A DNA stretch of 64,000 bases from positions 62,001 to 126,000 of the forward strand of contig CALVUR010000001.1 in NCBI GenBank assembly GCA_944363645.1, written 5' to 3'. The notes beneath the pieces are model-generated. The model worked only from the letters and a program-made list of their open reading frames with translations, was not told where the DNA came from and did not search any database. A program made the position numbers and the translations under genes. The stretch comes from an uncultured Clostridia bacterium. Its GTDB lineage: Bacteria; Bacillota; Clostridia; Christensenellales; Borkfalkiaceae. Shown piece by piece: positions 17,196 to 48,546 of this stretch (position 1 is its first letter; every line of letters starts with the position of its first letter).

Positions 17196-19367
17196 TTAAT
17201 CAATTTTTTCCAAAATTATTAGACTAAATGTAAATTCATCGTAAGAATTTCTTGATAAATTTAAACCGACATTGTGATAATATTCCCCTGTATTTATTGT
17301 CCCGTCAACAAGGTTTTTATAAAGCGATTTTTCGCAAAGACCTTTTAACTTAATAAAGCGGAAAATATCACGTTCAACAAGTTTATTCGCAAATAAAATT
17401 AGCGATGCTTTTTTATCTTTTGACACACATTGCATGCACAAATTATTATTGTTAAATGGGTTAATTAAGTGATAAAGTGTGCCGTTTTCGACAACATCTA
17501 AATGATATTTTTTATAAATTTCTGCAATTTTATTTATTTGTTTTATCTCGTCTTTTAACAACAAATTAGGGTTCATTTCGTAACCGTAAGTACCAAAGAG
17601 TGCCAAAATCGCCTTTTCTTCATATGAAGCAATCTTGCTGTCGTTTACGTGTGTACCCATTGTAGATAAAGGATAACCGATTGATGTGTTATAGTTTATT
17701 ATCATTCGCCTTGCCGGGTTACTTTCATCGCTCGTCCAAATTTGTGGCGTGTAATAAAGCGTGCCCATATCGAACCTACCACCACCAGAAGAACAGCCTT
17801 CTATCATAATATCAGGGTATTCATCTCTAATTCTGCCAATAAGTTTGTAATAGCCAAGTACAAGCCTATGGTAGACTTCCCCTTGCCTATCGCCCAAATT
17901 TTCGCTGTAATGCTCGGCAACGGTGCGGTTATAGTCCCACTTGATATAATCAACCTTATACTCATCTAAAAAAGCTTTCATTTGCGAGTAAATATTTTCA
18001 ATTACATCGTCAAAGGCAAAGTCAAGGTGCATTTGGTGGCGCATCAAAGAATTGAAGTTTTTGTCAACACTTTTAAGCCTATATTCGCTGTGAGCCCTAA
18101 ATAGATCGCTGTCGGGGTTAATCATTTCAGGTTCAAACCAAATACCAAACTTAATGCCTTTTTGTCTGCAATGGTCAATGACCTTGTGTAAATCGATCTT
18201 GTCTTTATTTAAGTACCAATCGCCAAGTGCACGATAATCATCGCACCTATTAGCAAACCAGCCGTCGTCAAGCACGAATAATTCTGTGCCGATTTTTACT
18301 GCATCGTCGATATAAGAGATAATCGATTGAGTGTTAAAGTCAAAATAGCAACCTTCCCATGAATTAAACAAAATGGGTTTATATTCCCTATCCTTTTTGT
18401 AAGTAATAAGGTTATCTTTAATAAATTCATGGAAGTTTTGCGACATCTTGTCCACGCCTTGGTAGGAATAAGAAATTACCGCTTGTGGCGTTACAAAACT
18501 TTCGCCCTTTGAAAGTTTAAAGCAAAAATCCTCATCGTTTATGCCGTAAGTTATATGGGCATTTTTGTATTCACCACAATCAACTCTAAATGCAAAATTA
18601 CCGCTATATATCAAGTTGAAGCCAATAACTTCACCACTATCCATATTGGCATTTTTGGCTTTAAGATAGGTAAACGGGTTTTCGATATGCGAACTTCTGC
18701 CCCAGTTTGAACTTACAATTTGAGTGCCGTCGTGTAGCGCATTTTCATTGTAATGGCGTTCTTCACCCCACCTACCACTAAAATGCACCAAGTCATAAGC
18801 CATATTAGTTAATGTAAGTTGCATGGACATTGCCCTTAAAAGGTAAACATCATCGCCGTCATTTACAATTTCGAAGTTTTTAACAATTATATCTTTATCA
18901 AGGAAAATCGTGATAAATAGTTTGACTTTTAATTTGGAATTTACATCGGCAAGCAAAAACTCAATGGTTTCGCAATTATCGCCGTGCGCATGCGGTTGAC
19001 CATTTAGTGGCAATACGCCCTTGTAAATTTTATGTTTTTTGTAAACAAAATTTGTTTCGTAACTATAATCGGCTTTTTTTATGATAATTGGAGATTGACG
19101 TTTATCAAAAAGCCCATGTGAAGATAGTTCAAGCGGGGCGGTTTCTGGTTTAAAACCGTCATCGTAAACTTTTTCAGTTTTGCTTAAACTGTCCCAATAA
19201 GTAACCGAATGATTTAAATCGTTACGTATTTGGTCGTAATCGTAAATTTTAATTTGTTTACCAAAATAAACGGTTTCTAAATAACCGCAGTTATTAAGGT
19301 AAATTGAATACATTATACTACCATTTTTAAGTTCAAAAACTGACCTATCTTTATAAAACTTAATCAT
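17196..19367 (-). CDS. Alpha-galactosidase, GH36
   Basis: A 723-residue GH36 alpha-galactosidase, the usual length for the bacterial tetrameric type. An N-terminal beta-sandwich (about 1-320) precedes the TIM barrel, with FVLDDGWFANR, FGIWFEPEM, the nucleophile Asp in IKWDYNRTV (about residue 477), EGCSSGGGRFDMG and the acid/base Asp in WTSDESNPARR (about 544). There is no signal peptide, so it works inside the cell on imported alpha-galactosides. It has its own promoter after the nanE terminator, which allows expression separate from the cluster upstream. Confidence 0.95.
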   Translation of the reverse strand: MIKFYKDRSVFELKNGSIMYSIYLNNCGYLETVYFGKQIKIYDYDQIRNDLNHSVTYWDSLSKTEKVYDDGFKPETAPLELSSHGLFDKRQSPIIIKKADYSYETNFVYKKHKIYKGVLPLNGQPHAHGDNCETIEFLLADVNSKLKVKLFITIFLDKDIIVKNFEIVNDGDDVYLLRAMSMQLTLTNMAYDLVHFSGRWGEERHYNENALHDGTQIVSSNWGRSSHIENPFTYLKAKNANMDSGEVIGFNLIYSGNFAFRVDCGEYKNAHITYGINDEDFCFKLSKGESFVTPQAVISYSYQGVDKMSQNFHEFIKDNLITYKKDREYKPILFNSWEGCYFDFNTQSIISYIDDAVKIGTELFVLDDGWFANRCDDYRALGDWYLNKDKIDLHKVIDHCRQKGIKFGIWFEPEMINPDSDLFRAHSEYRLKSVDKNFNSLMRHQMHLDFAFDDVIENIYSQMKAFLDEYKVDYIKWDYNRTVAEHYSENLGDRQGEVYHRLVLGYYKLIGRIRDEYPDIMIEGCSSGGGRFDMGTLYYTPQIWTSDESNPARRMIINYNTSIGYPLSTMGTHVNDSKIASYEEKAILALFGTYGYEMNPNLLLKDEIKQINKIAEIYKKYHLDVVENGTLYHLINPFNNNNLCMQCVSKDKKASLILFANKLVERDIFRFIKLKGLCEKSLYKNLVDGTINTGEYYHNVGLNLSRNSYDEFTFSLIILEKID

Positions 19368-19403
19368 ACAAAAAATTCCTTATGTGTGCAGATTTACGTA
19401 TAC

Positions 19404-19433
19404 ATTTTAATTAAAATGAAGTGTGATTGTCAA
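19404..19433 (-). promoter_or_regulatory. Promoter of the GH36 gene
   Basis: On the minus strand TTGACA (19428-19433), 18 bases, TAAAAT (19404-19409). Next to the -10 lies the short palindrome GTATAC (19398-19403), a possible operator. Confidence 0.6.
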
Positions 19434-19447
19434 TACTCTTAAAAAAT

Positions 19448-19473
19448 AAGCCCCAAAAATCTTTATGGGGCTT
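19448..19473 (-). terminator. Terminator after nanE
   Basis: AAGCCCC (19448-19454) pairs with GGGGCTT (19467-19473), followed on the minus strand by a T-rich stretch (complement of 19441-19447). Confidence 0.82.
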
Positions 19474-19510
19474 AAATTTTACGTAATTACCCTAAATAAG
19501 GGCTTGATAA

Positions 19511-20275
19511 CTAATAAGTAACACCATTAAACGTATCGTTGTTATCAAAGACATTCTTGTAATTTTTAGTAATTTCAAGCGGTCTTGTGATAGCAGCACC
19601 TATTATAATTCTTTTAATGCCGATATTTAAAATTTCATCGACTTGTTCAAAAGTGTGTATTCCGCCTTCAGCAACAATATCGGATTTTTTCACGTCGTTA
19701 TAAAGTTTTTTACAAAATTCGATATCAGGAATAGCAATTCCTTTAGTTTCTTCTGTGTAACTTCTTAACGTTGTAGATATAAGGTCAAATCCTAATTTTT
19801 CGGCGTTTAAAGCATCGCTGTATGTGGCAATATCTGCCATAATTTTTTTATTAGAATGTTCCCTTATGTATCTAACTAAATCTTCAAGTTTTTCGCCGTG
19901 TGGTCTAAATCTTTGAGTTGCGTCTAATGCGATAACTGAACAGTTAGATTTAATAAGTGATTTTACTTCCTTTAAAGTTGGTGTAATATAGATTGGCGAA
20001 TCTGGATAGACCTTTTTTATAAGACCTATAATAGGAAGTTTACCATCAAGTTTTTTATTGATGGCATTTATATCTTTTACTGTGTTTGCACGTATACCTA
20101 CTGCACCGCCTAAATAAGCGGCATAAGCCATTTTTGGCATTGTATCGCCACCATATAACGGCTCATTTTTTAGGGCTTGGCATGACACAATTAATCCCTT
20201 TGGGATTAAATTACAGTTTAAATTATCCACGTTTCCACTTCCTGTTTTAGTTTTTTTGTAAGGGTAATTTTTCAT
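19511..20275 (-). CDS. nanE: N-acetylmannosamine-6-phosphate 2-epimerase
   Basis: A NanE-family TIM barrel that turns ManNAc-6-P into GlcNAc-6-P in the cytoplasm. Motifs: GLIVSCQALKNEPLYG, AYLGGAVGIRANTV, ADIATYSDAL and VVAEGGIHT-like 'IVAEGGIHTFEQV', with a phosphate site near RIIIGAAITRP. From the ATG at 20275 it has 254 residues, with about 15 extra at the N-terminus. A GTG at 20230 preceded by AGGAAG would give 239 residues, closer to the family. The ATG sits in the loop of a hairpin (20258-20284). No sialic acid lyase (nanA) is nearby, so ManNAc itself may be the source. Confidence 0.93.
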   Translation of the reverse strand: MKNYPYKKTKTGSGNVDNLNCNLIPKGLIVSCQALKNEPLYGGDTMPKMAYAAYLGGAVGIRANTVKDINAINKKLDGKLPIIGLIKKVYPDSPIYITPTLKEVKSLIKSNCSVIALDATQRFRPHGEKLEDLVRYIREHSNKKIMADIATYSDALNAEKLGFDLISTTLRSYTEETKGIAIPDIEFCKKLYNDVKKSDIVAEGGIHTFEQVDEILNIGIKRIIIGAAITRPLEITKNYKNVFDNNDTFNGVTY

Positions 20276-20319: not shown

Positions 20320-22284
20320 TTATTTGCCATATTTTGCTTCTAAGCGAGCAAAACCATCTTTAAAGGCTTTAATTGTATTTGATAAATCGTTGTATGTTGT
20401 TGTGTTTGGTTCATAGATACGTAAGCGGTTTGTAACCTTACCACCACTTGAATCGTTACAGTTAAACCAAACCATACCTTTTAATTGTTGAACATATGCT
20501 GGTTGTGGATCTTTGCAGAATTCGTCGAACATACCTTTAACCCATTCCGCTTGAGTATCAGCGTTTCTACCAAGCGCACCTGAAGCATCGCCACCACTAC
20601 CGCAAGCGAATTCTGAAATGATTACGCCCCAGTTTTCAAAACCACTTTCTTTGTTTTTATCATATAAAGCAGAATATCTATCAGCAAAACTTTGAATTCC
20701 TTCAGCACCTACTGCATAGTTGTTCATTTCGTAGTCAGTTGCACCGATAAGATGAACATATTCTTTACCCGGGAAGTAGCATAAATCTTCGCCCCATGAT
20801 GAATATGGGCAACTTATAGCGATAGGATTCCAAATCCAAATAACATTGTTTACGCCTTCTTCAATGAAGATATTGTAAAGTCTTTGCCAGGTCATAGTGA
20901 AAATGTCTGGGTCGAGCAATGTCATCATACCGCAGTAACTGGTCCAGTCTGTATTCATTTCGTTATTGAGCCTGAATAAGATTGGTTTTGAATATGCTTT
21001 GATATCTTGCGCTAATTGTCTAAAGTGAGCGTCATATTTACCACGCAAAACGTCAAACATAGGTGTTACTTCGCCGGCAACGATATTATTGTTTGTGGTA
21101 AATTGATAGGTAAATTGTAATACAGGTTGATTGTTTATGCCATTACCGCCTGCAAGTTGTAAAGACATATTTGTGTTAAAGCGGTGTAATTGACCACCCC
21201 AACTAATGTGTGTGTAGGTTGGATAAATGTCGAAACGGTGCGCCATTGCTTCTTCAATTCCGTTTTTCATTTCCAAACTATTGCGTAAGTTTACATCGTA
21301 ATCATTTTCGCCCGGCTGTAAACCCGTGCCTGTAATTGAGTAACTAAATACACCCCAATTTAAGGTTTTTGAAGTGGAAATTTGACGATAATAATCTCTT
21401 GTTTCCCTACTCCAATTTTTATCTTCTACTGCTTCACCAGCATTAAAGTAATTTCTTTGAACGCCTCTTGATTTGAAAAGTTTAAGACTTTCAACAAGGG
21501 TATCCATAACGTCAGCCTTGTTTGATTTTGACTTCATTACGAATAAATTGAAGTTGATTTCGTCATTGATTTCACGAACTACTGCAATGTTGTAATATGG
21601 TCTTTCAATTTGTGCCGAATCTTCAATTTTAATATCAAAACGATAAATATCAAAGCCCGGTTTTGTTGTGGTATCGCCGTAATTGTGTACAGGTGCACTC
21701 ATATCAAAATTGCATTCAGTACCCTTTAAAAGTGTTAAGTTTTGATTTTTGTAGAAATCTTCATTTATAATGTGGCGTAGTAACCATTCATTGCCATAAA
21801 TACACCATGGTGTAGTGTTTTGAGTGTATGGGTTTGAAGATTCTGTGCTTGAAGATAAAATGCTATCATCAAACTTAATTACTGTACGATATTTTGCAAT
21901 AGTATAATCTACTTCAATATTGTTTGTTGGAAGAGTATATGCAACACCGCCTGATAAGTTGACAATACGAGTATTTTTTTCGTTAAACAACTCAAATTTC
22001 ATATCATAACGACTGTTGACCTTAGTAAATTCACCAACATATTTGCCGTTTACATTAAATCTTGCACCGGTTAAATCACTTACCGATGAAAAGCCGTTTT
22101 TATCATCGATAAATTGCTTATCAAGATTAAAAGCGTATTCAAGTGAAGCATTATCTACTATAATTTGGTTACCCACGTCTTGACCTCCTGTGCTTTGGCT
22201 ACTATTCTCTACCTTTTCTTTACATGCTACTAATGAAAAAATGAGAAGAAAGCATAACAAAGTTGCAAAAATTTTTTTCATCAT
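20320..22284 (-). CDS. GH26-like glycoside hydrolase lipoprotein
   Basis: A 654-residue exported lipoprotein: a hydrophobic signal ending in LIFSLVACKEK gives a lipobox with Cys21. Residues 40-300 look like a beta-rich accessory region. The C-terminal half resembles clan GH-A, closest to GH26: ILFRLNNEMNTDW carries the probable acid/base Glu (about 441), followed by NVIWIWNP, and VIISEFACG carries the probable nucleophile Glu (about 557). GH26 enzymes are mostly beta-mannanases, but this sequence is divergent and the true substrate is open. It lies between an exported phosphodiesterase and nanE. Confidence 0.7.
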   Translation of the reverse strand: MMKKIFATLLCFLLIFSLVACKEKVENSSQSTGGQDVGNQIIVDNASLEYAFNLDKQFIDDKNGFSSVSDLTGARFNVNGKYVGEFTKVNSRYDMKFELFNEKNTRIVNLSGGVAYTLPTNNIEVDYTIAKYRTVIKFDDSILSSSTESSNPYTQNTTPWCIYGNEWLLRHIINEDFYKNQNLTLLKGTECNFDMSAPVHNYGDTTTKPGFDIYRFDIKIEDSAQIERPYYNIAVVREINDEINFNLFVMKSKSNKADVMDTLVESLKLFKSRGVQRNYFNAGEAVEDKNWSRETRDYYRQISTSKTLNWGVFSYSITGTGLQPGENDYDVNLRNSLEMKNGIEEAMAHRFDIYPTYTHISWGGQLHRFNTNMSLQLAGGNGINNQPVLQFTYQFTTNNNIVAGEVTPMFDVLRGKYDAHFRQLAQDIKAYSKPILFRLNNEMNTDWTSYCGMMTLLDPDIFTMTWQRLYNIFIEEGVNNVIWIWNPIAISCPYSSWGEDLCYFPGKEYVHLIGATDYEMNNYAVGAEGIQSFADRYSALYDKNKESGFENWGVIISEFACGSGGDASGALGRNADTQAEWVKGMFDEFCKDPQPAYVQQLKGMVWFNCNDSSGGKVTNRLRIYEPNTTTYNDLSNTIKAFKDGFARLEAKYGK

Positions 22285-24074: not shown

Positions 24075-24677
24075 TTACTTACCAACAATAATTGTAAAGT
24101 TTGCTATTTGACCGGCAAAAGTTACACTTGCTTTATACTCACCGTTAGGACAATTTTCAAGTATGCTAACACGTGCAATTAGGTTTTGACTTTCAATAGT
24201 GATCTTATCAGTTTCAACCCACCACTTAGCATCTTCACTTGAAGTTAATTGAGTATAAGCAGTAACTGTTACAACTTGATTTTGTGATAAAACCAACTTG
24301 CCAGATGGAAGTCTAACTTGCAAACTTGGTGTTATGACCTTGATATCAATGGTGTCAATAACTTTACCGGATATCAAAAGTTTAATTTGTGATTCGCCTT
24401 CTAATAAGCCTTTAATTTTAAGGCTTACGCTATCCTTTTCAAAAGATACAACTTTTGTATCTGTTGCCGACCATTTGATGCTTAAAGTATCTAACTTATC
24501 TTGCGATATAACCGATATAGTTGCGCTTTCGCCCTTATTTAAAGTAAGTGATTCTTCACTTAAATAAATGGGCGGTTTTTCTTCAATAATTGGCTCATCT
24601 TTTTTACAAGAAGAAGCACTAATTAAAACACAAGTTATAGCGGTTAAAACGAGCATAAATGCGATAAGCCGTTTCAT
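24075..24677 (-). CDS. Ig-like (BIG2-type) lipoprotein
   Basis: I chose the ATG at 24677 (200 residues, MKRLIAFMLVL), as GGGGGGT lies 6 bases upstream; a longer frame would run back into the GH31 gene. A signal with a lipobox-like ISASSCKK gives a lipid anchor near Cys24. The rest is beta-rich, with an Ig-like repeat (SLTLNKGESATISV ... KWSATDTKVVSFE) and a second, weaker one. It has no catalytic motif. It probably acts as a surface adhesin, a spacer or a partner of the exported enzymes encoded next to it. Confidence 0.68.
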   Translation of the reverse strand: MKRLIAFMLVLTAITCVLISASSCKKDEPIIEEKPPIYLSEESLTLNKGESATISVISQDKLDTLSIKWSATDTKVVSFEKDSVSLKIKGLLEGESQIKLLISGKVIDTIDIKVITPSLQVRLPSGKLVLSQNQVVTVTAYTQLTSSEDAKWWVETDKITIESQNLIARVSILENCPNGEYKASVTFAGQIANFTIIVGK

Positions 24678-24687
24678 ATTTACCCCC

Positions 24688-26664
24688 CTATAAAACGTTG
24701 TAATTTTTAGAGTCAATTCGTATAAAACATACCCTTTCATCTTTTGTGTTTTTAATCACTTTTTCGCTATCTTTTGTCCAGAAAATTTCTATTTCGTTTC
24801 CTAAATCATCAACAAAATTGAAAGTGCCTTCGCCAGATATAATAAATGTTAATTGTTCGTATTTTTCTAAATCGTTTCCTGCATTTGAAAACAACTTACC
24901 GTCTTTCAAATTTAACGGCAAACAGAAATTACGTCTAACATAAACAGGTGTATAATCTCGCTTAATATCAACGATTTTGGAAGCTTTTCCAAAATGATAT
25001 TCACCGGTAAATAGGTCATACCATTCGCCTTCTGGGAAGTAAATTTCACGACTACTAATATAGTCATTTACGATAGGACAAACCATTAAAGCATCGCCTA
25101 ACATAAACTGATTTTCGATATCGTAAGTGTTTTTATCGTCAAAAAATTCGACCATAAGTGCACGTATTGAAGATAGACCGGTTTTGTTTGAATTTAACAT
25201 CAAACTGTATAAATACGGCATCAAGTTATAGTGTAGATAAAAGTGCTTTCTTGTGATTTCAAGTAGGCTTTCATCTTTATGAAAAGCACTCATATTCCAA
25301 GGGCTTCTATCGTTTATTTTCCATTCCCCTGAAAAGTCGCAACGATTGTTTGCAACGGGGTCGCTATGCCACTGCATAACGGGTAAAAATGTTGCCGTTT
25401 GAACAGCACGAAGATATAATTCATTGGTGGGTAGATAGCCCGAAAAACCGGCAATATCATAACCCCAACAGTTTATACCACTTGCCCCAGCAGAGATGCC
25501 GGCTTTAATAACGGAACGGTATTCTTGCCAAGTTGATTCTTGATCGCCCGCCCATATTACGGAAAATGATGGTGAGTTTTGACCACCGCTTCTTGAAAAC
25601 ACAATTCTATCTTTGCCAGCAAAATCAGCAAAGGCTTTTGTGTACTGTTCTGGGTAAGCATTTTGACCTTCAATGCCCGTTGTGCCGTCGCTAAACTTAA
25701 CTTCTTTTTCGTGCACAAATTCGCCACCATCGGTCTTAAAACCGTCAATTCCTAAATCTAACAAATATGAGAATCTATCAAACCAATGTTTACTGCCCAC
25801 TTTGTCAGTAAAATCAGGAATCATACTACCTATACACCATGTATGCGGTATTAAGTAAGGCGTGTTATCCTTATTTAAAACACACTCTAAACTTTGTTTT
25901 ACATAGTTGTTGTCGTTTTCAACTTGTTGCAAGTTTGTATCGCCTTCAATATTGATACCTTGCGCATAGATTGGCACCAACCAAAACAACACCCTTATTC
26001 CCCTTTTGTGAAGTTCGTCAACAAGTTTTTTGGGGTCGCTGTAAAATTTGGATGGGCTAAAATCCATTTCATCAAGCGTAATATATTGATCGCCATTTTT
26101 AACAGGCACTTTTGCACCATTGATTAAATAATGGGTTGTTAGATCCGACCACCTTTCGATTACAAGCACATTGTGTAAAAACTGATATTTTTCGTTATTT
26201 TCTAACTGTTCGTAAACATCACGCTCGTTATCCCAGCGGTTGGAACTCATCCATGCGCCAAGCACCCATTTAGGGAAAATTCTTGGCATAGATGTAAGCG
26301 ACCTAAATTCATAAATAATTTGCTTTGGTGTACCTTCTAAAAGGTAGCACGCTGGCATTTTGCCGTTTGTTGGCATATGGCAAAAAATTGTAATTTGATC
26401 ATCAATGGTAAAATCAAAATCAACTTCTACATAAGTGTCAACATAAATACCAAAGCCATCTGGCGTTAAAAAGTAAGGCATTGATAAATAGGTAAATTCA
26501 CCTTGATAAAAGCATTTTTCCTTTACCATACACCTTAGAAATTTGCCTTTTTGGTTGATAGAATCAAACTTTTCGCCCAGCCCCATAACGGCGGTATAAG
26601 GTTTATTAAGTTTATAAGTAAATCCTCCATCAACTTGGGTGAATAAATTATCTATACGCTTCAT
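24688..26664 (-). CDS. GH31 family glycosidase (first copy)
   Basis: A 658-residue GH31 enzyme. An N-terminal beta-sandwich (GLGEKFDSINQKG) precedes the barrel, with WMSSNRWDN, the nucleophile Asp in GIDGFKTDGGEF (about residue 305) and the acid/base Asp in IWAGDQESTW (about 375). There is no signal peptide, so it is cytoplasmic. GH31 includes alpha-glucosidases, alpha-xylosidases, alpha-galactosidases and sulfoquinovosidases; the KTDGGE and AGDQESTW forms are not those of the second copy here (FWNDMNEP), so the two should differ in substrate. Its ATG overlaps the DUF4127 stop by 4 bases. Confidence 0.9.
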   Translation of the reverse strand: MKRIDNLFTQVDGGFTYKLNKPYTAVMGLGEKFDSINQKGKFLRCMVKEKCFYQGEFTYLSMPYFLTPDGFGIYVDTYVEVDFDFTIDDQITIFCHMPTNGKMPACYLLEGTPKQIIYEFRSLTSMPRIFPKWVLGAWMSSNRWDNERDVYEQLENNEKYQFLHNVLVIERWSDLTTHYLINGAKVPVKNGDQYITLDEMDFSPSKFYSDPKKLVDELHKRGIRVLFWLVPIYAQGINIEGDTNLQQVENDNNYVKQSLECVLNKDNTPYLIPHTWCIGSMIPDFTDKVGSKHWFDRFSYLLDLGIDGFKTDGGEFVHEKEVKFSDGTTGIEGQNAYPEQYTKAFADFAGKDRIVFSRSGGQNSPSFSVIWAGDQESTWQEYRSVIKAGISAGASGINCWGYDIAGFSGYLPTNELYLRAVQTATFLPVMQWHSDPVANNRCDFSGEWKINDRSPWNMSAFHKDESLLEITRKHFYLHYNLMPYLYSLMLNSNKTGLSSIRALMVEFFDDKNTYDIENQFMLGDALMVCPIVNDYISSREIYFPEGEWYDLFTGEYHFGKASKIVDIKRDYTPVYVRRNFCLPLNLKDGKLFSNAGNDLEKYEQLTFIISGEGTFNFVDDLGNEIEIFWTKDSEKVIKNTKDERVCFIRIDSKNYNVL

Positions 26665-29115: not shown

Positions 29116-29126
29116 AATTCCCCCCT

Positions 29127-30131: not shown

Positions 30132-30165
30132 CTTTCCCTCCTTAAAATACAAATTTATACCCCAA

Positions 30166-35749: not shown

Positions 35750-36051
35750 CTTTTCCTCCCGAAAAAATAGTTTTTTATATTTTGACCTTTTAGGTCTTGA
35801 TACCTTTTTAATGCCTTTTTTAATACCATTGCCACAAATTTTGCAAAATTTCATATATGGTAATTTGCGCATTTTATAAGGCCTTTAAGCCCCTTTTTTC
35901 TCACACAAACATTATATGCAACGCAAACTTTTTATTTGATTTTGGCAAAATTTAGTGTTGAAAAGAAATTTTCTTTCACAAAATTATCAAAAAAATATTT
36001 CATTTTTGGGCAAAAATATGCCTTTTTTAGAACTTTCTTATCTCAATTATA

Positions 36052-36153: not shown

Positions 36154-36168
36154 TGAAAATAAATTTCA
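36154..36168. promoter_or_regulatory. Candidate RpiR-type operator, copy 1
   Basis: TGAAAATAAATTTCA. It differs by one base from the palindrome at 47479-47493 and by three from the one at the rpiR-type gene's own promoter. It lies upstream of the large lipoprotein and importer series. Confidence 0.4.
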
Positions 36169-36320: not shown

Positions 36321-36482
36321 ATTTATTCAAATTTGAAAATTTGTTTCACTCACCTTTTTACTTTGTAAAATGGTATTAAAATGACAATTATTATTTTGTC
36401 AAAGGAAAGATATGACTTGATGCCCCCCTTTCCTTAAACATCTTCTATATGCTTTTTGAAAACTTACGTTTGAAAATAAAAA

Positions 36483-40436: not shown

Positions 40437-40464
40437 GATAACGGGCTTATAGCCCCACTTTTTA
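40437..40464 (-). repeat. 28-nt stop-codon-proximal repeat, copy B
   Basis: On the minus strand this begins with the GH20 stop codon TAA and contains the hairpin GGGGCTATAAGCCC and CTATAAGCCCGTTAT. All 28 bases are identical to 48544-48571, which in the same way begins with the stop of an unrelated gene. No T-run follows here. Confidence 0.85.
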
Positions 40465-42333
40465 ATTATTTAAGTTTACTGTTGTCATCCTTTGCCATCT
40501 GTATTCACACTGGTCAAAATCTTTTTCAAAATCTAAGCCGTTGCCCATAAAGCAAAGTAAATTTTCTTCTAATTCATCAATTTTAAAGGTCTTTTGTTTA
40601 AGGTATAATTCCACCTTTTTAATTGCGGTAGAAAGCCTTTCTTTTAACGCACCAAAGCGGATATCTTGAACGTCAAAACCGTTTGGACGGGCTTCCTTTT
40701 CCCATTGAATTGCAAAAGTTTTGTGTAAATTTTCCGCTAATTTTTGCAAATCTTTCATTTGTGAAAGTAACTTTTTAAGTCTTTCTTTATCGCCATTTTG
40801 GTATGCTTCACGCAGATTTATACCGAGTTCTGCTTTAATTGAAAGCACTTCGCACAAGTCCCTTTGCGTTTCAAAAATGTAAGACCATTCCCCTGCCCTT
40901 TTGCAAACTTTGGCAAGTTTTTGGGCGTGGGCTTTGTATAAATCGTTTTGTCCTTTTGCGATAATTGTATCTAGTGTTCCGAGCAAAATATCGTTAAATA
41001 AAAGGTATTTATTTGCGGTGTTGCGCTCGTCAATGTCGTTATTTTCGGTTATTCTGTTTGCTAAATCAATGGCTAAAAAGTCGGCTAAATTTAGCCCTGA
41101 AAAGTTTTTAAAAGCCCTTTCAAAATTTTCGTCCATCTTGTAATCATTATATTTAGCGTAGCCGGCGTAATAAACTGACGGCATTGTTGCAAAGCATGAT
41201 GCTTCCGCACCGTTATCGCCCCAGCCCGTTACGATATAATGATCGATTTGATTTTGTTCACACGCAAGCATTGAGGTTTCGATTGCTTTGAATGAGTAGC
41301 GGTTATCTGGGGTAAAGCCCAACCATTTCCACGCACCGCCGGCAAAACCGATTTTGTTATTGAAAACTGCGTGCTTTTGCATCATTTGACTATAATGTTC
41401 TGTACTTGTACTGCAATAATCCCAATAAATAAGTTCGATGCCTTCTGGGACCAATTTAGCGATACAATCATCTAAATCGCTACCGTACTGGTCGTTTAAT
41501 GTGAGCGAGAAGAACATATCTGACCACATCATGGGCTTAAAGCCGTATTTTTGGCAAAGTTCGTTGACAATTTTAAGGTGCTCTGCCATGATTTCAAAGC
41601 GTTTTTTGTAGCCGTGAAGGTCTAAATATTTTCCCCTGCCGAGCAAGTAGGCTTCGTCCATGCCGATGTTTATACGGCGTGAAGTAAAATATTCCGCACA
41701 AGTTTTAATAAGTTCTTCAACAAAGTCGTAAGTTGTGTTTTCGCCTACGAGCAAAATTTCGTTAATGTCAAAAAGGTTTGCCATGCTTGGGTATCTTACA
41801 ATTTGGTTTAAATGCCCGAGCGTTTGAATGCACGGTACAAGTTCTATGCCGAAAACCTTACAGTATTCGTCAATGGCTTTTATGTCGTCTTTTGTGTAAG
41901 GTGTGCGAAGATAACCAAAGTATGGGTATTTTTCCACCTTGAAAGTGTCTTCTGTATAAAGCATAAAGGTGTCGTAACCGGCAATTACAAGTTGAGAAAC
42001 CACTTTTTTAATCGTGTCAAGTTTGTAAACTGCGTTACGTGAGCAATCAAGCATATAAGTTAAATCGTTAAAGCGTGGCGTAAAGACCTTTTCCCAACTC
42101 TTTTTAGGTAGTTTTGTCTTTTCAAACGTGTCGCTAAACTGCTTTAACGCCCAAAATGCTTGATTTAATTTTTGATAGTAGATTGTAAGCGTGTTGTCGG
42201 CGTAACGAAGTTTTATTTGGTCGCCCAAAACAAAATTTACCATTACGCCATTTTCTGCCAAGGAAAAGCCGTAACTTCCCTTAAGTTTTGCAAGTGCTGT
42301 CAAAAATTTTTGGTCTTTAATACAGTATTTCAT
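40462..42333 (-). CDS. Beta-N-acetylhexosaminidase, GH20
   Basis: A 623-residue GH20 enzyme. The barrel begins near residue 90 with YMLDCSRNAVYKLDTI. The catalytic Asp-Glu pair is in NIGMDEAYLLGRG (about 226-227); MWSDMFF and a late WGDNGAEA help form the GlcNAc pocket. A helical C-terminal region (about 430-600) follows. No signal peptide, so it is intracellular and releases terminal beta-GlcNAc or GalNAc from imported glycans. It lies between ROK and GH31 genes, consistent with stepwise breakdown and phosphorylation. Confidence 0.93.
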   Translation of the reverse strand: MKYCIKDQKFLTALAKLKGSYGFSLAENGVMVNFVLGDQIKLRYADNTLTIYYQKLNQAFWALKQFSDTFEKTKLPKKSWEKVFTPRFNDLTYMLDCSRNAVYKLDTIKKVVSQLVIAGYDTFMLYTEDTFKVEKYPYFGYLRTPYTKDDIKAIDEYCKVFGIELVPCIQTLGHLNQIVRYPSMANLFDINEILLVGENTTYDFVEELIKTCAEYFTSRRINIGMDEAYLLGRGKYLDLHGYKKRFEIMAEHLKIVNELCQKYGFKPMMWSDMFFSLTLNDQYGSDLDDCIAKLVPEGIELIYWDYCSTSTEHYSQMMQKHAVFNNKIGFAGGAWKWLGFTPDNRYSFKAIETSMLACEQNQIDHYIVTGWGDNGAEASCFATMPSVYYAGYAKYNDYKMDENFERAFKNFSGLNLADFLAIDLANRITENNDIDERNTANKYLLFNDILLGTLDTIIAKGQNDLYKAHAQKLAKVCKRAGEWSYIFETQRDLCEVLSIKAELGINLREAYQNGDKERLKKLLSQMKDLQKLAENLHKTFAIQWEKEARPNGFDVQDIRFGALKERLSTAIKKVELYLKQKTFKIDELEENLLCFMGNGLDFEKDFDQCEYRWQRMTTVNLNN

Positions 42334-42404: not shown

Positions 42405-43247
42405 TTAGTCTATTTGAACAAGGCTGCCCAAACAGCCTGCGTATTGGGCGTTTTTTGCAAGTTTGATATCGTCTTTTTTGTCGATAAGTGAAAGCAAAAT
42501 ATCAAAATCTTTTGTAAGCCCACCGCTGAAAATAATTGCGTCTGGCGAGTAAAATGTGCGGATGTTGTCTAAGAAAATGTTAAGGTAAAAAGCAAACTCT
42601 TTCATAACAATTTTTGCATTTTTGTCGCTCGTTTTATATAGTGCGAAAAGTTGTTTTACCCCATCTAAATTAGGGATCAATTTTTTGGCTTCGTTATATA
42701 ATGCTGTGCACGATAAATATGTTTCAGCACAGCCCAATTTACCGCAATTACACGGTCTGCCGTTTGGCACTAATACGCTGTGTCCTAAACGTGCACCGTC
42801 AAAATTTTTGCCACGGATAATTTTGCCGTTTGATAAAACCGCACCGCCGATACCTGTACCGAAAGTGATCATAACAAGTGTTTTATCTGCGCCGTAAAAC
42901 TCTATTTGAGATTTAAGTGCGCAGATTGCATCGTTATCAACAACCGTTTTAATGTTATACCTCATTTGGACTTCTTCGGCGATTTTAAATCCTGTAAAGC
43001 CCTTTAAATTGTCCGTAGTATACACACAAACGCCATTTTTATAATCGATATTACCGGCAGAAGAAATGCCAATAATTTTAACATTTTCACACATTAAATT
43101 ATCGATAACAAAGAACAAATTTTGCTTGATTTTGTCAAGCCCAAGTTTGCCGTTTGTGGGGGCGGAAAATTCCTTTATTATTTTATTTTCATCAAGTAGC
43201 ACACCCTTTATTGTTGTGCCACCTATGTCTATTGCAATTTTAAACAT
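42405..43247 (-). CDS. ROK family sugar kinase
   Basis: A 280-residue ROK protein without a helix-turn-helix, so a kinase rather than a repressor. The ATP loop is DIGGTTIKG (6-14), the sugar region is TFGTGIGGAV and GARLGHSVL, and the zinc motif is CNCGKLGCAETY. ROK kinases phosphorylate glucose, ManNAc, GlcNAc, fructose or allose. With nanE in the same region, ManNAc kinase activity is a fair guess and glucokinase is the main alternative. It lies between GH20 and DUF4127 genes. Confidence 0.9.
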   Translation of the reverse strand: MFKIAIDIGGTTIKGVLLDENKIIKEFSAPTNGKLGLDKIKQNLFFVIDNLMCENVKIIGISSAGNIDYKNGVCVYTTDNLKGFTGFKIAEEVQMRYNIKTVVDNDAICALKSQIEFYGADKTLVMITFGTGIGGAVLSNGKIIRGKNFDGARLGHSVLVPNGRPCNCGKLGCAETYLSCTALYNEAKKLIPNLDGVKQLFALYKTSDKNAKIVMKEFAFYLNIFLDNIRTFYSPDAIIFSGGLTKDFDILLSLIDKKDDIKLAKNAQYAGCLGSLVQID

Positions 43248-43269: not shown

Positions 43270-44775
43270 TTATTCGTTAAAATATAATTTTAATTCGGTT
43301 TCAAACATTCTTGCCCACGGCATACACACATCTAAATCTTTAACATATTTTGCTAAATTTGGATAGTTTTCTGCCATAAATTTTATGATATTTTCTTTGA
43401 CAAGATCTGAAACTTTGCCACGTTTACTGCCTGCGTTAAAATAGTTTAAGTTAAGGCTTGGCAACATATTTTCTGTTACAAAAGTACGCACGTATGCCAT
43501 GTAAGCCAAATCTTCATAATATCTTAAAAGCAAAAATTGTCTGTTTAACTTATCATCTTTACCGGTAAAATATAATACCGCTTGCGTACACGCTGTGCCG
43601 ATTGTATTTGATGAAGTGTTCCAACCGGCGTAAGCAGAAATTTTAAGTAATAAATCTTTTTGATTAAGAATATTTATAAGTTCAATTTCACTGCCGTTTG
43701 CGGTTGCGTTATCGCACACTGCGACAATTTTATTTTGATTTAATGCGTAACTTATAAATTCTGTAAACTCGTTTAAATTGCGCTCTACATTATAACATTT
43801 ATCGTAATCGCTATCGCCAAAGTTACACATTTTACTGCCCATACTTACCGCCAAAACAATGTCTGCTTCGCATAGAGAATACACACGTAAACCGCCAGCA
43901 GATAAAATGTGATATTTAATAGTTTCGTCAAGTGGTCTGTCTTCAAACCACGGAATTACAGTTTTTGCTTTTTCGCTTGCGTAATGCACATAAAACTTGG
44001 GTTTTTGACAGTTTAATTCGTTTATTGCACGGGCAAGAAGTATAAGCCCTGTATCGTCTGCCGATGGGTACATGCTTGTTTTTAAATGTAGTACGTTTTC
44101 TTTCAAAATTTCACGCACTGCCATTTGATCAAGCGAGGTAAAACCGTACTTTTTGGCGTCGTCTTGCGGAATTATAAAGTAGTCGCAAGTGCCGTCGATA
44201 ATATAGCGTAAATTGTGTTTTAAAACGGCTAAATTTTTCTTTCGCCTATCAATAAAATCGTTAAGATAGTCTTTGTTTAAAGTTGCTTTTATCTTTTCAA
44301 ATTGCTCTTTTTCTTCCCTATCTAAAATGCCCAAACTTTGCTTGTGTGAATATTTGCCGTAAAGGAAAATTTGTTCACCACATTCTTCGTAATAATCTGG
44401 CTCTTCATCGCTTGAAGAGTAACTTGGACAGCGCATGATAAGTTGAAAAAGATAAAGTTTCATTTTTAAATTTAACTTGCGCAACTTTTCAATGATTTTT
44501 GCCCTATTTATAAGTGTATTTTCACTTTCGTTGTGAAGTCTTGACGGCACAATTCCGCCGTAAATTAACGTTTCAAGCGAGATAATTGCGCAGTCTACGT
44601 CTTCAATATTTTCTAAAAGCCACTCACTAATTTTTGCAAAGTCTGCCGGCAACTTTTTATCGCCCATCATATCTTTCGGTGGCATAATTAAAGTGTAATC
44701 AGCACCGGGCATAAGCCTTGGGTAGTTGTAATTACAAGGTCTTTCGTCAAGTGGCAACAGCAAAATTTTTTTCAT
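43270..44775 (-). CDS. DUF4127 family protein (second copy)
   Basis: A 501-residue paralogue of the protein at 26661-28172, with the same marks: KILLLPLDERPCNYNYP, ISLETLIYGGIVPSR, IPQDDAKKYGFTSLDQ, YPSADDTG, NTSSNTIGT and MPWARMFETEL near the end. Differences between the copies, such as SPWNR against MPWAR, may reflect substrate. There is no signal peptide. It is 7 bases after the SGNH stop and in one operon with ROK, GH20 and GH31. Function unknown. Confidence 0.85.
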   Translation of the reverse strand: MKKILLLPLDERPCNYNYPRLMPGADYTLIMPPKDMMGDKKLPADFAKISEWLLENIEDVDCAIISLETLIYGGIVPSRLHNESENTLINRAKIIEKLRKLNLKMKLYLFQLIMRCPSYSSSDEEPDYYEECGEQIFLYGKYSHKQSLGILDREEKEQFEKIKATLNKDYLNDFIDRRKKNLAVLKHNLRYIIDGTCDYFIIPQDDAKKYGFTSLDQMAVREILKENVLHLKTSMYPSADDTGLILLARAINELNCQKPKFYVHYASEKAKTVIPWFEDRPLDETIKYHILSAGGLRVYSLCEADIVLAVSMGSKMCNFGDSDYDKCYNVERNLNEFTEFISYALNQNKIVAVCDNATANGSEIELINILNQKDLLLKISAYAGWNTSSNTIGTACTQAVLYFTGKDDKLNRQFLLLRYYEDLAYMAYVRTFVTENMLPSLNLNYFNAGSKRGKVSDLVKENIIKFMAENYPNLAKYVKDLDVCMPWARMFETELKLYFNE

Positions 44776-44782
44776 GAAAATT

Positions 44783-45877
44783 TTATTCCCCTTCGGCTTT
44801 TAAAATGGCTTTTTTATAAAAATCGGCAATTTTTTCCATACCTAAATCGGTTGGGTGGATGCCTTCAATGGTATATTTAGTATAATCTTTGCCAAAAACG
44901 TTTGACTTATCGTAAAATTTAATGTTGTAACCTTTCTTTATATAATCTTTAGCCACATTCCGCATAAATTTTACATAAAATTTGTTTAGATCAATGCGGA
45001 AAAGGTCGTATTTATCCATAGAAAATTTGATCCTTGACATCAAAACAACCTTTAAATTGGGCTTTTTAGCAAAAATTACGTCCAAAAATGGGCAAAGATT
45101 GTTATTTAAACGCTCATCAATGCCGGCGTTTGCTTCGGTGTCTAAAATCAACAAATCGTAATCATAATTTGATATGATTTTCGCCATTTCCCTTTCCATA
45201 AAAGCACAGCCTGAAAAGCCTAAATTGTAAATTTCGGTATCCAAAGTGCGTGATAAAATATTGGTATACGCCATTCCAGGTCGTGATGCCGAACAGCCTT
45301 GCGTAATGCTTGTACCGTAAATTGCAATTTTTTGACTGTTTGCAAAGTAAACAGGGCTTATATCACATCCTTTTAATACGCCGATTTTCAGGTTTTGCAT
45401 ACCCATATAAAGGGGTAAGTGTATTATAAATTTTCTTTCGCTATGGTTAAGTTGAGAAAAATCACCTATCCTGATATCAAATTGCGTTTCGCCAAAAGGG
45501 CTTGCGACTGCGTTATGTAAAATGTAGGTTTTTTCAATCTCGTCATACACATACAAATCAAGTCCGCTTGCGCCAATTTGCGACATGTTGGTCATGTTAA
45601 ACTTTTCGTCAACGCTACCTTTTACGAAAATTTGTGGCGAGTCCGTTTTAAACTTTATTATTATTCCGCTGGAATGACCTGCAAGCCATGCAACGCCCTC
45701 ATTTATTGGGGTAATAAATTCACGCTCTTTTAAAGTTAATCTGCGGTAGCCCTTTTCATTTGGGCAAAGTGTGCCGACCAAATTGAATTTTGACCTATCT
45801 TTGCCGTCGTAATAATCTACTTTAGCACCGTCAAATTTTGCGTAAACCATATTTTTATCGATATCGAGTATAGACAT
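44783..45877 (-). CDS. SGNH/GDSL-family hydrolase
   Basis: A 364-residue protein with an N-terminal jelly-roll domain (about 1-180) and a C-terminal SGNH domain, the layout of carbohydrate esterases of the CE2 or CE3-like kind. The nucleophile Ser is in AIYGTSITQGC (about 188), the oxyanion Gly in GFSGCAFM and the block III residue in ILDTEAN, where Asn is preceded by Glu. The His is in EGIHPTDLG; the usual partner Asp of DxxH is Glu here. It probably removes acetyl or other acyl groups from sugars. No signal peptide is seen. Confidence 0.8.
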   Translation of the reverse strand: MSILDIDKNMVYAKFDGAKVDYYDGKDRSKFNLVGTLCPNEKGYRRLTLKEREFITPINEGVAWLAGHSSGIIIKFKTDSPQIFVKGSVDEKFNMTNMSQIGASGLDLYVYDEIEKTYILHNAVASPFGETQFDIRIGDFSQLNHSERKFIIHLPLYMGMQNLKIGVLKGCDISPVYFANSQKIAIYGTSITQGCSASRPGMAYTNILSRTLDTEIYNLGFSGCAFMEREMAKIISNYDYDLLILDTEANAGIDERLNNNLCPFLDVIFAKKPNLKVVLMSRIKFSMDKYDLFRIDLNKFYVKFMRNVAKDYIKKGYNIKFYDKSNVFGKDYTKYTIEGIHPTDLGMEKIADFYKKAILKAEGE

Positions 45878-45958: not shown

Positions 45959-45978
45959 GTTAAAGCATATTTTATCAA

Positions 45979-47403
45979 TTATTTTTCAGTTACTAAAACA
46001 GTGTTAATAACCGACCTTGTAGCAGTTAAATCGGTAAGACCTGTATCACTTGAACGGACCATTACCGTTTTAGTGCCGTTTAAGTTTACTGTAAGTTGGG
46101 TTGAACCGCCACCGTCAAAGTTTGCGCCGTTTTTGATGTTGTAGTAAACCATAAAATCTGCAATTTCTGGTAAACTTACGCCGTGTGTGTCGCCATCTTG
46201 CGCCTTTTTGCCGTAATACATTGACTCTACCGCAAAAATTACCACTGTGCCGTCCCCTTTAACACCAACTGCGCTTCTTGGAATGTCAGTTGACTGTGCT
46301 CCGTTTGAGTTTTCTTTGGTAACGGTTGGACTTACTGCGCCATTTTCGACAAGTGATTGACGGCAACCTAAAATTGTGTCGTAACCTTTCCACGTGTTGT
46401 CCGGTGATGTAACAAAGAAAGAAACATATTTTCTTTCAAGCGTAGAAAATTCAGTTGTGGCAGTGCTGTCTTTACCGACAAAAATGTAAGCAAAACTATC
46501 GTCCGGGGTGAAAGTGGTGTCAGCCGTACAAGTGATTTTTTGCATTACTCGCATGTGATTATATCCATTTGCGATGGTTACCTTTAATGCGTAGTCGCCA
46601 GCCTTACATGTAAATGGCGTTTTTGCATAGTTGAAAACGACTTTTGTTGCGCTTGAGTTTTGATTTTCCAACACTTCGTGCGTTTTTGAACTATTGTCTG
46701 CGCCGATTTTGTAAGTCAATTTTGCGGTAATTACCTGTTTTTTAACTTCTGCACTTTGGATATCGCCCGTGTATTTAATAATTGGGGCGACTTGTGCAGT
46801 GGTGTCTTTTACACCAAAAAGCATTGGTGCAGATGCTGGGACGTCTGCGCTTAAGTCTTTATAATCGTAATTTAAATTATCGTTGTGTGAATCTTTAACT
46901 ATTATGCCGTCTTTTACAAAGGCATTGACGGGTTTTGAACCGAAAAAGTCTGCGTTTAAGTATGCGTAAACTTGTTTACCCGTTGCCTTTTCGTAAGCGG
47001 AAGCTTGGCGTGCCGGGACTTCTTTTGCAAGTTGGTCATAACTTGTCGTATTGTTTTTTGTGCCAGCCTTGATATTTACCTTTTCAAGGTCTACTTCAAG
47101 CGTGTAAAACTTTACGATATCGCCATTGTTTTTTGCAATCAATGTTTCAACCATAATAAGCCCGTCAACAACTTGTGTCGCCGTGTAAGTTACGCTTGAT
47201 TTATCAAATTTTGTAAGCGAATAATCATTGTTAAAATCAACCGTGATTTTTGGCGGCGTATCATCATCTGGCTTTGTGTTTGATGTGCTTGACGACGTTT
47301 GACTTGATCCGCTATCGTCAGTTTGCGTTGGTGCACAAGCAAAAAGTGAAAATGAAAGCAATAAACAAAGTACTGCAACTAAAAATTTAAAACTCAATTT
47401 CAT
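45979..47403 (-). CDS. Phosphodiester glycosidase family lipoprotein (NAGPA domain)
   Basis: A 474-residue lipoprotein; the lipobox is FSLFACAPT (Cys23), followed by a Ser/Thr-rich linker. The C-terminal domain (about 100-470) is of the phosphodiester glycosidase type (formerly DUF2233): AVGVKGDGTVVIFAVES, GVSLPEIADFMV and the hallmark NGANFDGGGSTQLTV. The human relative uncovers mannose-6-phosphate by removing GlcNAc from a phosphodiester; bacterial homologues are thought to cut sugar-1-phosphodiester bonds in wall or spore polymers. It is the first gene of the second operon and acts outside the membrane. Confidence 0.88.
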   Translation of the reverse strand: MKLSFKFLVAVLCLLLSFSLFACAPTQTDDSGSSQTSSSTSNTKPDDDTPPKITVDFNNDYSLTKFDKSSVTYTATQVVDGLIMVETLIAKNNGDIVKFYTLEVDLEKVNIKAGTKNNTTSYDQLAKEVPARQASAYEKATGKQVYAYLNADFFGSKPVNAFVKDGIIVKDSHNDNLNYDYKDLSADVPASAPMLFGVKDTTAQVAPIIKYTGDIQSAEVKKQVITAKLTYKIGADNSSKTHEVLENQNSSATKVVFNYAKTPFTCKAGDYALKVTIANGYNHMRVMQKITCTADTTFTPDDSFAYIFVGKDSTATTEFSTLERKYVSFFVTSPDNTWKGYDTILGCRQSLVENGAVSPTVTKENSNGAQSTDIPRSAVGVKGDGTVVIFAVESMYYGKKAQDGDTHGVSLPEIADFMVYYNIKNGANFDGGGSTQLTVNLNGTKTVMVRSSDTGLTDLTATRSVINTVLVTEK

Positions 47404-47478
47404 TTTTCCATCTCCTATATCAATATATTTTTCAATTTTTTATCTTGCCAAAAAGTTGTTTTTTTGATTGTTTTTTGG

Positions 47479-47493
47479 TGAAAATAATTTTCA
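47479..47493. promoter_or_regulatory. Candidate RpiR-type operator at the second operon
   Basis: A perfect palindrome TGAAAATAATTTTCA. It begins about 23 bases past the -10 of the lipoprotein operon, in a roadblock position like that of the site at the rpiR-type gene. Confidence 0.55.
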
Positions 47494-47515
47494 TTTTACA
47501 CCAAAGTTCAACCAT

Positions 47516-47544
47516 ATTGTAACATTTTTGAAAGATAATTTCAA
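47516..47544 (-). promoter_or_regulatory. Promoter of the second carbohydrate operon
   Basis: On the minus strand TTGAAA (47539-47544), 17 bases, TACAAT (47516-47521) with an extended TG, about 110 bases before the lipoprotein start. Confidence 0.65.
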
Positions 47545-47686
47545 TAGTAAGTGAAAAAATTTTTCTTAAATTTTTAATTACATATATAAGTAGATATAAA
47601 AAAGTTATTTATTCGTCGTAATTTAAAGTAAAAAATGGCTAAAAAAGAAGTTAAAAAAATTAAAAATTGGTAATTTTGAAAATTTA

Positions 47687-47715
47687 TTGCAATTTTGATA
47701 TTGATGTGTTAAAAT
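47687..47715 (+). promoter_or_regulatory. Promoter of the alpha/beta-hydrolase gene
   Basis: TTGCAA (47687-47692), 17 bases, TAAAAT (47710-47715) with an extended TG; the Shine-Dalgarno AGGAGGTG (47722-47729) follows almost at once, so the leader is very short. Confidence 0.68.
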
Positions 47716-47733
47716 TTAATTAGGAGGTGTGTT

Positions 47734-48546
47734 ATGAACATAAAAACTATAAATTTAAACCTTTTATACCCCGTTAAAAGTGGTAAACTTAACGCAATAT
47801 ATTTAAATCCGCCTTTTGATGATACCAATGAAGCCTTTAAACGCCCTGCCATAATTATTTGCCCGGGCGGTGCTTACAACTTTTGCAGTAAGCGAGAACA
47901 AGAGCCTATTGCCACCTATTTTTTAGATAAGGGGTATCAAGTATTTTGTTTAGAGTATGGCACTGCGCTTGAAGGATATTTTTATCCAGAGCAACTTTAC
48001 GAACTTGGTGCATCAATAGATTACATAAAGAAAAATGCAAAAAGTTTATATGTTGACGAAAATAAGATTTTTGTAATTGGTTTTTCTGCCGGTGGGCATT
48101 TGGTTGGCAATTTAAGCAATCAATATCAACTTGTAAATGATTATTTAAAGACCGACTGCAAACCAACCGCCGTTGGACTATGTTATGCGGTAATAAGTGC
48201 CGAGTATGGTCATACACAAACCATTTACAACGTAACTAACGGTTATGAAGAAGCAAAACAAAAAGAACTTATTGAGTTATTAAGCCTTGATAAACTTGTA
48301 TCTAATAACACGCCACCTACTTTTATTTGGACAACCGCTGAAGATACTGTTGTACCGCCTGTAAATTCTTTAAGGTACGCCGAAGCGTTAAGTAAAAACG
48401 GCGTTAAGTTTGAATTACATATTTACCCTTATGGTAGACATGGGCTTAGCAACTGCCAAAGCGAGATAAATGAAAATTATCCTTACCTATCAAAAAACCG
48501 TCAATGGCTTAATAATATTGATGAATTTTTTAAAAGTTTAACATAA
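47734..48546 (+). CDS. Alpha/beta-hydrolase, acetyl-esterase type
   Basis: A 270-residue serine esterase of the BD-FAE/acetyl-xylan-esterase-like group. The oxyanion motif is CPGGAY (43-48), the nucleophile is Ser118 in GFSAGGH, the Asp is in WTTAEDTVVPP and the His in YGRHGLS, so the triad is complete. With no signal peptide it is cytoplasmic and probably deacetylates imported sugars or oligosaccharides. It is the only plus-strand gene of the carbohydrate region and diverges from the phosphodiester glycosidase operon. Confidence 0.87.
   Translation: MNIKTINLNLLYPVKSGKLNAIYLNPPFDDTNEAFKRPAIIICPGGAYNFCSKREQEPIATYFLDKGYQVFCLEYGTALEGYFYPEQLYELGASIDYIKKNAKSLYVDENKIFVIGFSAGGHLVGNLSNQYQLVNDYLKTDCKPTAVGLCYAVISAEYGHTQTIYNVTNGYEEAKQKELIELLSLDKLVSNNTPPTFIWTTAEDTVVPPVNSLRYAEALSKNGVKFELHIYPYGRHGLSNCQSEINENYPYLSKNRQWLNNIDEFFKSLT

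Follow-up and report, generated by a model that had tools for sequence, protein, structure and literature searches.

We propose that a gene block in a 64,000-nucleotide stretch of an uncultured Clostridia bacterium genome (Borkfalkiaceae; contig CALVUR010000001.1 of assembly GCA_944363645.1, positions 62,001 to 126,000; hereafter the window, whose own coordinates are used throughout) plausibly serves the use of a foreign bacterial surface glycan that contains N-acetylmannosamine (ManNAc) and bears phosphodiesters, wall teichoic acid (WTA) being one candidate among several. Nineteen genes, all on the minus strand, make up the block (17196-47403), and our argument centers on two proteins of the Pfam family DUF4127 (PF13552), on the epimerase NanE, and on two exported enzymes of phosphodiester-cleaving families (GDPD and the NAGPA-domain phosphodiester glycosidase). 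An initial annotation had suggested that the locus scavenges a phosphodiester-linked glycopolymer of other bacteria, perhaps WTA; a foreign ManNAc-containing glycan is now better supported, because DUF4127 goes together with either NanE or AGE (GlcNAc/ManNAc 2-epimerase; GlcNAc, N-acetylglucosamine). All the families that it had named were recovered by Pfam where it had placed them, but it had missed both DUF4127 genes, a GNAT_C/NAT_N gene (37594) and the lipoproteins at 24075 and 32324.

Within the 121 genomes sampled from the family, NanE and DUF4127 each score above cut-off in 15, and 12 genomes share both. The family genomes that have DUF4127 and no NanE (G013, G030 and G087) have AGE instead, either adjoining DUF4127 or close by (in G030 only as a fragment where the contig ends), and an Erysipelotrichaceae locus (L168) likewise has AGE in the place of NanE, close to or adjoining DUF4127. 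Two of the AGE proteins were compared with PDB sequences: true N-acylglucosamine 2-epimerases scored 374 bits with one and 304 bits with the other, cellobiose epimerases no more than 93 bits with either. As NanE acts on ManNAc-6-phosphate and AGE on ManNAc, the exchange shares ManNAc only, and the NanE/AGE-linked DUF4127 proteins thus probably supply free ManNAc; this would also explain, as had been supposed, what NanE is used for. The association extends to 36 loci that do not belong to the main group of gut Clostridia (Paenibacillus, Acholeplasma, Lachnoclostridium, Neobacillus and others), in which the DUF4127 operon includes NanE (29 loci), an RpiR regulator (20) or a ROK kinase (15), nearly always with neither GDPD nor NAGPA; DUF4127 of Paenibacillus, Acholeplasma and other groups adjoins NanE, ROK, RpiR and an importer. 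In a maximum-likelihood tree built from 162 DUF4127 sequences, the NanE/AGE-linked members fall mainly into a 93-member clade (support 97) and a small sister group, and AGE is seen on two separate branches of that clade.

A sialic acid pathway was rejected, since NanE is tied to DUF4127 and NanA stays below cut-off genome-wide, where each protein family was searched separately (best 124 bits versus 382, in a 94.6% complete draft; a similar match occurs in nearly all family genomes), so that the earlier remark on a missing sialic acid lyase holds. Neither a sialidase nor NanA was found near DUF4127 in any locus examined. The same family does contain a true sialic acid locus (G117:C26, L121), where a BNR sialidase, a NanA-like protein, NanE and ROK stand together and DUF4127 is absent.

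Both window proteins match the full DUF4127 model (482-489 bits, cut-off 27) and are 51% identical to each other. The family exceeds the cut-off in 62 of 398 genomes of the phylum and has a conserved polar core (PLDERPCN, RCPxYS..EEPDYY, QDD, FEDR, GWNTSSNTLGT and PWxRMFE). Our best guess is that DUF4127 is an N-acetylmannosaminidase. We would extend this, tentatively and with less confidence than we give the pathway below, to the view that the cytoplasmic clade is a ManNAc-releasing glycoside hydrolase (GH) family with which, together with GDPD and the phosphodiester glycosidase, gut bacteria (wall-less ones included) feed on ManNAc-containing capsules or wall polymers made by others. A literature search returned no paper that names DUF4127, none that deals with a mannosaminidase and no relevant locus for teichoic acid utilisation. 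A Sci Adv paper on a phosphodiester glycosidase was set aside, as the protein that it treats is calcineurin-like. In two loci (L250 and L266) an exported DUF4127 protein of another branch adjoins proteins that, as read from their sequences, appear to be of the S-layer-homology (SLH) type.

The GDPD and NAGPA genes apparently belong to one conserved, co-regulated locus. Orthologues of NAGPA (44-63% identity, >330 bits) occur in nine of the 121 family genomes and those of GDPD (>460 bits) in seven, all seven lying within the nine (hypergeometric 6e-10, a statistic that ignores relatedness), which bears out the co-occurrence in relatives that the initial annotation had looked to. In the 398 phylum genomes, whatever the NAGPA profile matched away from DUF4127 loci was a general domain match of at most 72 bits. 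In the fetched neighbourhoods, most NAGPA-bearing genomes, from several genera, share these gene blocks, their order often preserved, and in G060 the module genes form a single run on one strand; a scan of named genomes added many further loci, chiefly from metagenome-assembled genomes (MAGs) of rabbit and other animal guts. With an importer, a regulator and at least two CAZymes co-localised and conserved, the locus corresponds to a glycan utilisation locus of the Gram-positive type. Loss of the neighbourhood in close relatives, named beforehand as an argument against the scavenging reading, was seen in part: the module is missing in five of seven same-genus genomes (the window's own counted; two of the five are only 61-72% complete) and retained in other genera. 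It is therefore patchy and probably moves between lineages.

The limits of the unit were drawn from the same comparisons. A BD-FAE esterase gene (47734) is shared, among the loci examined, only with the nearest relative (G016), and for this reason probably lies outside the unit; an endo/exonuclease-phosphatase gene (48636), retained only with that relative in the loci examined, was excluded as well. The window genes of a second set (54699-61664), which recur close to DUF4127 in some Paenibacillus loci, encode the housekeeping proteins RelA, RecJ and SecDF. One relative (G009, contigs C1, C5 and C8; L120, L033 and L118) has the module in several partial copies and possesses four NanE genes.

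Gene gaps suggest two operons. One (47403-37594) runs from NAGPA through SGNH, DUF4127 paralogue b, ROK, GH20C and GH31 to GNAT_C; the other (35872-17196) from a large lipoprotein (LP1182) through the solute-binding protein, LplB, LplC, DUF4127 paralogue a, GH31, a small lipoprotein, GDPD, a GH26-like protein and NanE to GH36. The RpiR gene sits between them. Because an operator-like palindrome is shared by both operon heads, we infer that the two operons form one regulon under RpiR. The 64 kb contain four copies of its exact form (TGAAA-N5-TTTCA) where 0.42 would be expected, a count reached in 1 of 100 shuffles, and each copy lies in one of the two operon-head regions (upstream of NAGPA or of LP1182). 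Across 823 kb of related loci there are six exact matches at five distinct sites (two loci overlap), all of them again upstream of NAGPA or LP1182.

As judged from the N-termini, GDPD (Sec signal), NAGPA, the GH26-like protein, the solute-binding protein and two further lipoproteins (lipoboxes) are exported, and GH36, both GH31, GH20C, both DUF4127, SGNH, NanE and ROK have no signal. Given few exported and many signal-less enzymes, the exported set would be mainly phosphodiester-directed and most glycosidases would act after import. We thus envisage (from predicted activities throughout) that the GH26-like enzyme, GDPD and the phosphodiester glycosidase, whose families are clear and whose substrate is deduced, cut a foreign phosphodiester-linked glycan outside the cell, and that the LplABC-type importer brings in oligosaccharides. 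In the cytoplasm, to go by family, SGNH esterase, GH36, the two GH31 and GH20C would strip acyl, alpha-galactosyl (alpha-Gal), alpha-glucosyl (alpha-Glc) and beta-N-acetylhexosamine (beta-HexNAc) groups, and one or both DUF4127 enzymes would free ManNAc, most simply as N-acetylmannosaminidases. ROK would then phosphorylate ManNAc, NanE would convert ManNAc-6-phosphate to GlcNAc-6-phosphate, and NagA and NagB (both present in the window's genome) would route the latter to glycolysis. The exported set (GDPD and NAGPA) requires a substrate with phosphodiesters, and the cytoplasmic set together with the NanE argument calls for one with alpha-Gal, alpha-Glc, beta-HexNAc, acyl esters and ManNAc. Among substrate classes, the most probable is a polymer that contains ManNAc and comes from the surface of other bacteria: WTA (linkage unit included), a secondary cell-wall polymer (SCWP) or a capsule. 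Taken as a whole, a regulon for the use of such a foreign glycan seems to us about evenly balanced between right and wrong.

Several points weigh against this scheme. The hydrolase assignment of DUF4127 comes from genome context alone; elsewhere in the family there are branches (several of them bearing a signal or extended at the N-terminus) whose genes occur on their own, with neither NanE nor sugar genes adjacent, hence our ManNAc statement is restricted to one clade. The ROK kinase scores higher with the glucokinase model (139 bits) than with NanK (98 bits), both below cut-off, and the palindrome was first spotted in the promoters of the window and of G016, the independent sites being only those in three other genomes. 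The Paenibacillus DUF4127 loci carry an FAD oxidoreductase outside the proposed steps; this FAD-dependent enzyme (PF12831, motif WIGGQLTSQ) is conserved in the Paenibacillus and Acholeplasma relatives L169-L203, sometimes alongside GHL10 or GH84. Furthermore, a confident AlphaFold2 model of paralogue a (pLDDT 90.6, pTM 0.92) has no close match among solved structures: it weakly resembles xylose isomerases (ranked high by Foldseek), other barrels and Rossmann folds, with scores (Foldseek TM <=0.33, best VIA-align Z 7.3) that fall where these tools show no true relative, and the DUF4127 profile had no match among PDB sequences.

It could accordingly be argued that DUF4127 is not a glycosidase but some other kind of enzyme, such as an isomerase or an epimerase, whose substrate is the monosaccharide or sugar phosphate later handled by NanE or AGE, a view to which the very high conservation of the polar core and the weak Foldseek and VIA likeness to xylose isomerase barrels (E ~1e-3, probability <=0.93, TM <=0.3, Z ~6) lend some weight. 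We regard it as unlikely, for those fold scores are in the range just described as typical without a true relative, and each of the two paralogues adjoins a different glycosidase gene, as linkage-specific hydrolases would.

The ManNAc-releasing pathway could in principle recycle the cell's own wall. This was made less likely by two observations, which also render a foreign polymer likelier (as had been supposed from the start): TagA and TagB/F are below cut-off in the 94.6% complete draft genome, and DUF4127 with NanE is found in wall-less Acholeplasma and Haploplasma and in an Acholeplasmatales MAG. A sub-threshold WecG/TagA-like match in the window's own genome (G000:C5:94467-94742; 22.6 bits versus a cut-off of 27.4) could be a divergent glycosyltransferase. 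The gut Acholeplasmatales locus L199 (Mycoplasmatota) combines NAGPA, DUF4127, NanE, ROK, SGNH and an importer with GH13 and GHL10, its GH13 alpha-glucosidase occupying the place of the gut-Clostridia GH31; this content suggests transfer across phyla.

Within the foreign-glycan scheme two special cases can be set out. SCWPs and capsules, like WTA, contain beta-ManNAc, and a chain rich in beta-ManNAc and beta-GlcNAc, with alpha-Gal or alpha-Glc branches and a phosphodiester to peptidoglycan or between repeats, would be degraded by DUF4127 and GH20C (GH84 elsewhere) alternating along it. Hexosaminidases of the GH20C or GH84 type do recur in DUF4127 loci, one Paenibacillus locus is preceded upstream by an exported GHL10 enzyme that bears SLH domains, and such polymers are known, that of Bacillus anthracis being a galactosylated ManNAc-GlcNAc-GlcNAc repeat (PMC7831098). 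However, GDPD is poorly explained, pyruvylated SCWPs have no internal phosphodiesters (PMC7831098), and no enzyme that removes pyruvyl ketals was recognised. As the specific answer this remains a doubtful possibility, yet SCWPs or ManNAc- and phosphodiester-containing capsules fit at least as well as WTA.

If WTA were the substrate, GDPD would shorten the poly-glycerol-phosphate, NAGPA would free GlcNAc-1-phosphate from muramic acid, GH31, GH36 and GH20C would strip alpha-Glc, alpha-Gal and GlcNAc, and the linkage unit would give ManNAc. The presence of GDPD and NAGPA in a single regulon and the NanE/AGE argument agree with this, as does the known chemistry: a ManNAc-beta-1,4-GlcNAc disaccharide joined by a phosphodiester to N-acetylmuramic acid, alpha-Glc on glycerol (PMC7086022, PMC7831098), and a GDPD, GlpQ, as the WTA teichoicase of Bacillus subtilis, which halts at substituted glycerols (PMC7086022). 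That last property also tells against it, because with the GH31 alpha-glucosidases lacking a signal, an external GDPD that needs unsubstituted glycerol and an internal GH31 have no obvious way to strip glucosylated WTA. Moreover, the window GDPD scores weakly with the GlpQ model, the locus has no gene for glycerol-phosphate uptake or use, one linkage unit (hence one ManNAc) per chain poorly justifies two DUF4127 genes, and NanE follows DUF4127 where GDPD and NAGPA do not occur. The specific suggestion of WTA made by the initial annotation is thus not upheld, and we hold it to be improbable. Equally hard to sustain is an ordinary locus for host or plant glycans (mucin, N-glycan or hemicellulose), in which NanE would handle ManNAc left by the sialic acid use of others: GH36, GH31, GH20 and GH26 are common families for such chains, the GH26 profile is nearest lichenase and mannanase and the relatives come from the gut, but NanE is linked to DUF4127 and not to a sialidase or NanA, the conserved GDPD and NAGPA orthologues are hard to account for, and the NanE/AGE exchange suggests ManNAc formed within the pathway.

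Returning to the genes of the proposed glycan regulon (Table 1), the two exported phosphodiester-directed enzymes have invariant residues: the catalytic H259, R260, E286, D288 and H301 of GDPD, which bears an additional N-terminal region of ~230 residues, do not vary across 19 orthologues, nor do R376, N428, D430, G431-433 and S434 of the conserved NAGPA core across 20. The small lipoprotein (24075) is retained next to GDPD in most relatives, and LP1182, whose orthologues adjoin the importer in most relatives, is possibly a glycan-binding protein. A G+C-rich stem-loop (GGGGTAGAGCAATCTGCCCC, 32270-32300) between the LP1182 and solute-binding protein genes has a counterpart in G016 and may reduce transcription of the genes downstream. 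The GH26-like lipoprotein is a probable extracellular endo-glycanase by its profile matches (lichenase Lic26A 5e-14; mannanases weakly), with E442 and E558 invariant across 31 orthologues; its gene is tandem-duplicated in many rabbit-gut relatives (L126, L127, L131, L132, L136, L137, L138, L140, L142 and L144). The second GH31 (38402) reaches 402 bits with the alpha_gluc_MalA model, below the cut-off of 800, and GH36 is 74% identical to its G016 counterpart, although its adjacency is not kept in every relative. The GNAT_C/NAT_N gene is a constant member of the catabolic operon, without an obvious role.

Table 1. Features of the locus (window coordinates)
Feature	Position	Strand	Basis or remark
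GH36 alpha-galactosidase-like enzyme	17196..19367	-	Pfam Melibiase E 1.3e-108
NanE, ManNAc-6-phosphate 2-epimerase	19511..20275	-	PF04131 E 2e-56; PRK01130 267 bits, cut-off 189
GH26-like lipoprotein	20320..22284	-	PF02156 E 5.7e-9 (weak)
Exported GDPD, 585 amino acids	22305..24062	-	PF03009 E 3.3e-16, 60.6 bits, cut-off 23.6
Small exported lipoprotein	24075..24740	-	no Pfam match; start codon uncertain, overlaps next gene
GH31, cycloalternan-degrading/lmo2446 type	24688..26664	-	PDB 4kmq/5f7s 320-388 bits
DUF4127 paralogue a	26661..28172	-	PF13552 E 1.9e-144
LplC-like ABC permease	28177..29133	-	PF00528
LplB-like ABC permease	29127..30152	-	PF00528
Solute-binding lipoprotein of importer	30223..32067	-	position, lipobox, conservation; no Pfam match
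Large exported lipoprotein LP1182	32324..35872	-	no Pfam match; heads importer/GDPD operon
Operator-like palindrome TGAAAATAAATTTCA	36154..36168	+	upstream of LP1182; same place in relatives
Operator-like palindrome TGAAAATTTGTTTCA	36334..36348	+	upstream of LP1182
RpiR-family regulator with SIS domain	36523..37356	-	PF01418, PF01380
GNAT_C/NAT_N acyltransferase-like protein	37594..38400	-	PF18164 E 2e-34
GH31 MalA-like alpha-glucosidase	38402..40396	-	PF01055 E 5e-102
GH20C beta-N-acetylhexosaminidase	40462..42333	-	PF18088; PDB 2epk/5a69 E <=1e-122
ROK sugar kinase, candidate ManNAc kinase	42405..43247	-	PF00480
DUF4127 paralogue b	43270..44775	-	PF13552 E 1.8e-146
SGNH esterase	44783..45877	-	GxDLY and Lipase_GDSL_3
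NAGPA-domain lipoprotein (phosphodiester glycosidase)	45979..47403	-	PF09992 E 2.2e-17, 64 bits, cut-off 25
Operator-like palindrome TGAAAATAATTTTCA	47479..47493	+	upstream of NAGPA
Operator-like palindrome TGAAAGATAATTTCA	47529..47543	+	upstream of NAGPA
BD-FAE esterase	47734	+	family match

The lasting interest lies in DUF4127 itself, a widespread and highly conserved family without a recorded function. If it does free ManNAc, it would fill a missing activity in the breakdown of bacterial wall polymers and capsules and could be used as a reagent for ManNAc glycans and for the linkage units of WTA, and there would be evidence that gut Clostridia encode a dedicated regulon for feeding on the surface glycans of other bacteria.

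Set beside known systems, the locus shares its importer, its regulator and its exported and cytoplasmic hydrolases in one regulon with the Gram-positive glycan loci built around LplABC importers, and goes beyond them in having GDPD, NAGPA, NanE and two DUF4127 proteins, a make-up for which the literature search returned no described locus. NanE, the ROK kinase, the RpiR regulator and the importer recall sialic acid (nan) operons, from which it differs in the sub-threshold NanA of its genome and in the lack of a sialidase near the DUF4127 loci examined. Its GDPD is exported and has the same catalytic residues as GlpQ, UgpQ and the B. subtilis teichoicase, but is distinguished by its length, its extra N-terminal region and its weak scores with both NCBIfam models (the UgpQ type being nearer than the GlpQ type). 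The NAGPA protein has the RTAvG...NFDGGGST core of the human uncovering enzyme (6pku, which its profile reaches at E 4.6e-6) and of the bacterial DUF2233 protein 3ohg; unlike these, it is a bacterial lipoprotein whose N-terminal part matches 3ohg weakly. GH20C is a near full-length match (~420 bits) to the intracellular hexosaminidases of Streptococcus pneumoniae (5a69) and Paenibacillus (2epk), and within DUF4127 at large the window's clade is set apart as cytoplasmic and NanE/AGE-linked, whereas other branches are exported or solitary.

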